A stretch of 64,000 nt of DNA from NCBI GenBank assembly GCA_945861895.1, contig CAMAWF010000008.1, positions 1-64,000 of the forward strand, written 5' to 3'. Under the pieces are notes generated by a model. That model ran no database searches and was not told the origin of the DNA. It saw only the letters and a program-made list of their open reading frames with translations. Both the position numbers and the translations under genes were made by a program. This document shows, one piece after another, positions 31,122-55,648 of this stretch. Source of the DNA: Rhizobium sp. Q54. Its GTDB lineage: Bacteria > Pseudomonadota > Alphaproteobacteria > Rhizobiales > Xanthobacteraceae. How positions within the stretch are numbered: the first letter of the stretch is position 1; each line of letters starts with the position of its first letter.

Positions 31122-31544
31122 TTAACCTCCCCCTGAAAGGGGGAGGTCGGCGCGCCAGCGCCGGGTGGGGGTCATTTCCGATGACCGCAGTTTGGAAATT
31201 TTGGCAGCGATTTCTTCCAAGACACCGGACAAATTCTCACTCATATCGGAATTCCAAAATCGCAACAGAGTTACGCCGCGTTCACTGAGCCAGCGCGTTC
31301 GTTTTCGATCTTGCCGCGCGACTTTCTGCCCGGCGTGCTGCCCACCGTCGAGCTCGATAGCGAGACCCAGAGCCGAGCAATAAAAATCCAGGACAAACGG
31401 TCCAGCCGGATGTTGTCGGCGGAAATCGACGCCGAGCTGCTTGTTGCGAATCTTTTGCCATAAGCGCGTCTCGACATCTGTCGCTTCGCGCCGCAGGCGG
31501 CGGGCGCGAGCAATTTTAACTGGATTGTTGTTGAAGCGCGACAC
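31122..31544 (-). CDS. DUF559 domain endonuclease-like protein (Vsr/PD-(D/E)XK-type)
   Basis: [56 protein letters not shown] 31544 lies just inside the right TIR (longer ORF to 31622 reads through the TIR). Confidence 0.85.
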
Positions 31545-31596
31545 GACCCCCCCCCGGCTCGCCTTGCGAGCCGACCTCCCCCTTTCCGGGGGAGGT
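31125..31596. mobile_element. Putative TIR-bounded cassette carrying a DUF559 nuclease, inserted between sucD and sucC
   Basis: Left TIR 31125-31173, right TIR 31545-31596; each is outer palindrome + inner palindrome + G-rich tract. Confidence 0.65.
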
Positions 31597-55539: not shown

Positions 55540-55648
55540 CCCCTCCCCCTTGTGGGGAGGGGTCAGGGGTGTGGGTCGGAGTTGAAGCATTTTCGATGCC
55601 CCATGCACCACCCCCCTCCCCAACCCTCCCCCCACAAGGGGAGAGGGA
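55540..55648. repeat. MITE-like inverted repeat pair related to the DUF559-cassette ends
   Basis: CCCCTCCCC-CTTGT-GGGGAGGGG (55540-55562) and inverse CCCTCCCCCCACAAGGGGAGAGGG (55625-55647) with G/C-tracts facing inward. Confidence 0.75.

Follow-up and report, generated by a model that had tools for sequence, protein, structure and literature searches.

A short gene enclosed by inverted palindromes lies between sucD and sucC in a 64,000-nucleotide stretch of DNA from Rhizobium sp. Q54 (hereafter the window), and its arrangement raises the question of whether a single nuclease can disperse its own gene together with the palindromic ends of that gene. An earlier interpretation, made from the letters of the DNA (the sequence-only reading), had proposed that the DUF559 nuclease encoded here may process or disperse its own ends, as an analogue of the REP/RAYT system built on a different nuclease fold. 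In the present work, the anatomy of this cassette, its distribution and its likely mode of spread are described.

Organization of the Cassette between sucD and sucC

The two inverted palindromes that bound the cassette were confirmed, from both sequence and folding, at positions 31125–31147 (ACCTCCCCCTGAAAGGGGGAGGT, at the 3' end of the gene) and 31574–31596 (ACCTCCCCCGGAAAGGGGGAGGT on the minus strand, at its 5' end). The inverted arms are 41 nt long and 88% complementary, and the near identity of the ends that had been claimed earlier holds to the base, with a single mismatch in the outer 27 nt. As single-stranded DNA each end folds into two adjacent hairpins (z = -4.7 and -5.0), and none of 200 shuffled sequences (0/200) was as stable. 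An inner hairpin with a G-rich stretch behind it is present at both ends, viz. CGGCGCGCCAGCGCCG at 31148–31163 at the 3' end, where it fills the second loop of a boxC/TM-type motif, and CGGCTCGCAAGGCGAGCCG on the minus strand at 31555–31573 at the 5' end (sequence and folding). The third, G-rich arm of the 3' end (GGGTGGGGG, 31163–31171, plus strand) would, judging from its sequence and the pattern in PMC4666352, represent the third strand of the TM/boxC triplex motif, and its counterpart in the sequence of the 5' end is GGGGGGGGG (31547–31555, minus strand). The spacings proposed earlier are both exact: the sucD start codon (ATG, 31108) is 16 bp away, and the sucC stop codon (31619) 22 bp.

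The gene is located on the minus strand and consists of 140 codons (31122–31544), extending from a GTG start codon at 31544 to a TAA stop codon at 31122–31124, with its DUF559 domain at 31197–31511. The stop codon lies past the left palindrome, and the C-terminal tail of the protein, within 31122–31544 on the minus strand, is encoded across this palindrome by read-through. A second element in the window, at 55540–55647, is an inverted doublet (CCCCTCCCCCTTGTGGGGAGGGG ... CCCTCCCCCCACAAGGGGAGAGGG) that contains no gene and whose third arms point inward.

The DUF559 Protein

The identification of one DUF559 open reading frame inside the cassette is borne out by a match to Pfam PF04480 over the whole domain (110.5 bits against a Pfam gathering score of 20.6; E 5e-32). 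The AlphaFold model of the protein (pLDDT 91) was matched by Foldseek to NGO0050 of N. gonorrhoeae (3hrl), to the EDxHD homing endonuclease I-Bth0305I and to Vsr, with values of 3.6e-6 (3hrl), 7.6e-4 (3r3p) and 0.012 (1cw0). An alignment of 55 DUF559 proteins contains 16 invariant residues, including E25, D53, E64xD66 and H70, and like I-Bth0305I and Vsr these proteins share the predicted catalytic fold and the conserved E, D, H and D. By its predicted fold, the cassette protein is thus a nuclease of the Vsr/I-Bth0305I type (EDxHD, PD-(D/E)XK superfamily), and it falls in one family with VsrA of Caulobacter (CCNA_02930) and YcjD of E. coli. The genes of DUF559 cassettes are under purifying selection (median dN/dS 0.36, with values <0.5 in 92% of pairs); these values and the conserved catalytic residues exclude a pseudogene. 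A role in defence was also considered and set aside, as PADLOC gave weak partial-domain matches only.

Distribution of the Inverted Ends

Of 150 genomes from the family (Xanthobacteraceae), 139 contain DUF559, with up to 10 matches per genome. At 115 family loci, which like the other DUF559 locus samples were chosen by similarity to the cassette-type DUF559 and describe that clade rather than every DUF559 protein, a perfect stem of at least 7 bp was found on both flanks in 82%, whereas windows located 500 bp further out gave 2.7%. The left and right ends of the same 115 loci matched each other (score of at least 50) in 70% of cases, vs. 9% for swapped loci and 0% for the far windows. The median length of the cassettes is 461 bp, and a matching signature was found in 30 DUF559 loci sampled elsewhere in the class. 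Among 80 named loci, ends of the form CCYTCYCC...GGRGARGG are present on both sides in 74% and on at least one side in 95%, and these loci span the Alpha-, Beta- and Gammaproteobacteria, Chloroflexota, Melainabacteria, Desulfobacterota, Rokuibacteriota, Nitrospirota and candidate phyla. The possession of inverted ends, seen by the sequence-only reading at one locus, is therefore general among these DUF559 homologues, in the family, in the class and in many phyla.

The 3' palindrome lies inside the open reading frame in 74 of 101 loci. In 10 of 11 mixed loci the upstream end has a hairpin and the downstream end a short T-loop; many other loci carry two hairpins or two short loops, and the asymmetry between 5' and 3' ends is no more than suggestive.

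Relationship of the Ends to boxC/PIT/TM-ECO Repeats

Based upon their sequence pattern, the cassette ends belong to the boxC/PIT/TM-ECO family of "intrastrand triplex" repeats, for which the pattern CCCTCNCCC N3-6 GGGNGAGGG N3 GGGNGAGGG has been described (Holder, 2015; PMC4666352). According to the same study, TM-ECO is found in 23 copies in MG1655 and in 3610 copies across 262 proteobacterial genomes, five inverted TM pairs in E. coli each combine one type A and one type B unit, the repeats are unstable on their own, and no mobility functions were found near boxC/PIT/TM repeats (PMC4666352). The strict layout, viz. C-arm, loop, G-arm, 3-nt loop and third G-arm, is seen in many DUF559 ends with the loops TTA, TTG and CCG, and the ends in the window represent a variant of it, in which CCTCCCCC arms enclose a second-loop hairpin in place of the strict 3-nt loop. 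Membership of the ends in the GTAG or CGTC REPs was also considered, and the sequences do not fit either group.

Of 5426 E. coli genomes, 5395 contain boxC-like sequence, with a median of 19 sites, and non-coding doublets with inward third arms occur in this species as well. The E. coli gene ycjD encodes a DUF559 protein; its stop codon is located in a degenerate boxC unit and a complete type-A unit lies ~150 bp downstream (locus L345, ~2700–2930, NC_000913). Of these 5395 genomes, 3334 contain the ycjD region and ~2,000 lack it. As an empty-site case ycjD proved unsuitable, since four strains lacking it carry a TetR/efflux region beside fabI, which leaves no clean junction. No TM motifs were found in the four 50-kb stretches of MG1655 that were scanned, and the open literature searched (subscription papers being outside its scope) contained no link of DUF559 or ycjD to boxC/TM repeats.

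Dispersed Palindromes and Their Co-variation with DUF559

The genome from which the window is derived contains 35 exact CTCCCCCN5GGGGGAG palindromes but only 1 copy of the reversed control pattern, and hence these palindromes are not due to chance; wider patterns gave 65 and 102 palindromes, vs. 0 in the reversed control. Many gene-less inverted doublets are present, their units ~80–190 bp apart and their third arms nearly all inward, as in the cassettes. Among the palindrome pairs listed at a distance of ~400–500 bp, DUF559 is the sole content. Of four DUF559 matches in this genome, the three catalytic genes (C8, which is that of the window, C17 and C54; loci L001–L003) each lie between paired palindromic units of their own variety (3/3), and the fourth (L004) lacks both the ExD...H core and the palindromes. 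No Y1_Tnp gene (PF01797, RAYT) was found in the source genome, which rules out a resident RAYT as the mobiliser.

The two ends of a locus share one stem type (CCTCTCC or CCTCCCC) in 91 of 108 cases, and this type changes 14 times on the DUF559 tree, vs. 38.5+-2.7 times for shuffled labels (minimum 30 in 300 shuffles). The nearest DUF559 of another genus shares the stem type in 89% of cases, compared with 53% by chance. Stem type thus tracks DUF559 phylogeny, which is the co-evolution of enzyme and repeat that characterizes REPtrons.

Genomes with a cassette-type DUF559 contain a median of 25 palindromes, vs. 2 in genomes without it (p 3e-7), and the corresponding numbers for the wider pattern are 62 and 20; the correlation of abundance is strong for CCTCCCC units and weaker for the wider pattern. 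Dispersed copies number up to hundreds per genome. Some genomes without DUF559 (G018, G073, G078, G095, G114, and G146) nevertheless contain 62–101 palindromes of the wider pattern, and no DUF559 remnants were found in the stretches of such genomes that were read. Three of them with no detectable DUF559 (G018, G078, and G095) carry arrays of up to six alternating units.

Empty Sites and Junctions

In most genomes of the same genus with a readable gap, the sucC and sucD genes abut or overlap (TGATG or TAATG), and empty sucC-sucD alleles, as the idea of a mobile cassette implies, thus exist in most of the related genomes read. A DUF559 cassette occupies the gap in three same-genus genomes including the source, with different flanks, and other short inserts are found in two. 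A relative (L054) carries a CGTC-type repeat in this gap, which thus takes different repeat families. In another genus, the dnaN-recF gap (199 genomes found, 70 read) is seen in empty, single-unit, cassette and cassette-plus-unit states. The exact insertion ends could not be derived from either gap, because the flanks are too diverged or re-arranged.

When 87 cassettes were examined for target-site duplications, none was seen at any offset, and the cassette in this respect lacks the hallmark of a classical insertion sequence with a DDE transposase; the inverted identity of the two flanks drops to chance at about +5 to +6 bp. A boxC doublet between hrpB and mrcB of E. coli is present or absent within otherwise near-identical flanks, and at the one closely matched empty site ~13 nt are exchanged for ~115 nt, which is not a clean insertion and involves no target duplication. 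At the same place in E. coli UTAK-23 (L411), a loop-to-loop deletion between two boxC units has left one hybrid palindrome.

A Parallel GIY-YIG System

The dnaN-recF gap of ten genomes (L211, L214, L216, L222, L227, L228, L236, L242, L244, and L247) contains an open reading frame for a GIY-YIG nuclease between CGTC-type REPs, a class of REPs reported to lack association with transposase genes (Di Nocera, 2013; PMC3733652). Matching inverted ends were found in 18 of 29 GIY-YIG loci from the Xanthobacteraceae (62%; L375–L404), vs. 0% for far windows and 4% for swapped loci, and the GIY-YIG nuclease is a candidate partner of the CGTC REPs. A 149-bp dnaN-recF gap (L209) holds an internally deleted GIY-YIG cassette, a non-autonomous derivative that has kept both CGTC ends.

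Proposed Mobility of the Cassette and Alternative Explanations

The closest parallel to these observations is provided by the REPtrons, in which genes for RAYTs (Y1 HUH tyrosine transposases) are flanked by REPs and accompanied by REPIN/BIME doublets (Nunvar, 2010; PMC2817692; PMC3733652). Like these, the DUF559 cassette has one nuclease gene enclosed by a pair of inverted palindromic units, its ends co-evolve with the enzyme, non-coding doublets are dispersed in the genome, no target duplication is seen and intergenic sites are preferred. It differs from them in that the defining Y1 HUH domain of RAYTs (PF01797) is absent from the encoded protein, which is a DUF559 protein of unrelated fold with no catalytic Tyr, in that the ends are boxC/TM units instead of GTAG or CGTC REPs, and in its occurrence in many phyla. 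With boxC/PIT/TM-ECO the cassettes share the pattern, which forms the end of many of them, the inverted pairs of two sub-types and the genomic instability; these repeats have been described as orphans without a gene or mobility function, whereas in the DUF559 cassettes they bound a nuclease gene, and their second loop is often occupied by a hairpin. Unlike EDxHD homing endonucleases, the DUF559 cassettes are associated with no intron or intein, have short palindromic ends and are found in multiple copies at unrelated intergenic sites.

We consider that the cassette is probably a self-mobilising single-gene nuclease element resembling a REPtron, in which a Vsr-type nuclease replaces the Y1 transposase, and we infer that DUF559 binds and cuts the cassette ends and drives their spread. 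The unit at each end consists of a C-rich arm, a loop, a G-rich arm, a second loop or hairpin and a third G-rich arm. DUF559 would recognise this end in its folded form (hairpin or triplex), when it becomes single-stranded in the course of repair or at replication forks, and would nick or cut there. Either the cassette itself, freed or copied, or more commonly a short pair of ends without a gene, on which the enzyme acts in trans, could then reach a new intergenic site, where host repair would insert or copy it without a target-site duplication, in a scheme that parallels how REP/RAYT elements are thought to work. An analogue of REP/RAYT on a different nuclease fold, as proposed by the sequence-only reading, is the best-supported interpretation because the ends are general, empty alleles exist, the ends co-vary with DUF559 phylogeny, doublets are dispersed and no Y1/RAYT gene is present. 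It is supported only in part, because the ends at sucC-sucD could not be mapped, no target duplication is seen, palindrome-rich genomes without DUF559 exist and the action of the enzyme is our own deduction.

These palindrome-rich genomes would be expected if the boxC/TM palindromes were spread by host replication and repair or by an unrecognised transposase, with DUF559 as cargo, as in a composite transposon. The instability of TM repeats by themselves (PMC4666352) and the loop-to-loop deletion in L411, which implies no enzyme, are also consistent with such hitch-hiking, but we regard it as unlikely, in view of the palindrome pairs ~400–500 bp apart that hold only DUF559 (among those listed), the co-variation of end type with DUF559 phylogeny across genera, the lack of a RAYT in the source genome and the association in many phyla. 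Another function for the nuclease is suggested by its fold similarity to Vsr and by VsrA of Caulobacter, a related protein and the only DUF559 to have been studied, which gives an SOS response in vivo when ScmA cytosine methylation is missing, is itself SOS-induced and has been interpreted as a mismatch-repair enzyme (PMC12907096). If DUF559 proteins in general resolved hairpins, triplexes or mismatches, the palindromes could be an autoregulatory substrate and the gene could spread by ordinary horizontal transfer; this appears quite improbable, as it leaves unexplained the two inverted ends on almost every copy, the presence of more than one unrelated copy in a genome (as many as 10 matches), the doublets and the empty sites. 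Stable stem-loops at gene ends might also suggest bidirectional terminators or stabilisers of mRNA ends around a mobile gene, with no role in mobility. We consider this very improbable, since the open reading frame runs through the 3' palindrome in most loci (74/101), the inverted order is maintained together with the third arm, copies are dispersed in up to hundreds per genome, and earlier tests reported in PMC4666352 detected neither promoter nor terminator activity of PIT/boxC.

Biological Significance

Homing-type nuclease cassettes, with DUF559/EDxHD and in parallel GIY-YIG enzymes, may represent a new class of mobile element that moves itself and thousands of doublets by cutting folded ends, and from which the boxC/TM repeats of E. 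coli and, via GIY-YIG, possibly the alphaproteobacterial CGTC REPs would be derived; for this broader proposal we see about an even chance. Since the 1990s the boxC/PIT/TM repeats have counted as orphans, and DUF559, present in E. coli as ycjD, is the first candidate enzyme for them. The results suggest that selfish repeats of the REP kind have had more than one origin, in association with unrelated nucleases, and the DUF559 proteins, which are annotated as unknown or as repair proteins in very many genomes, would gain a function.
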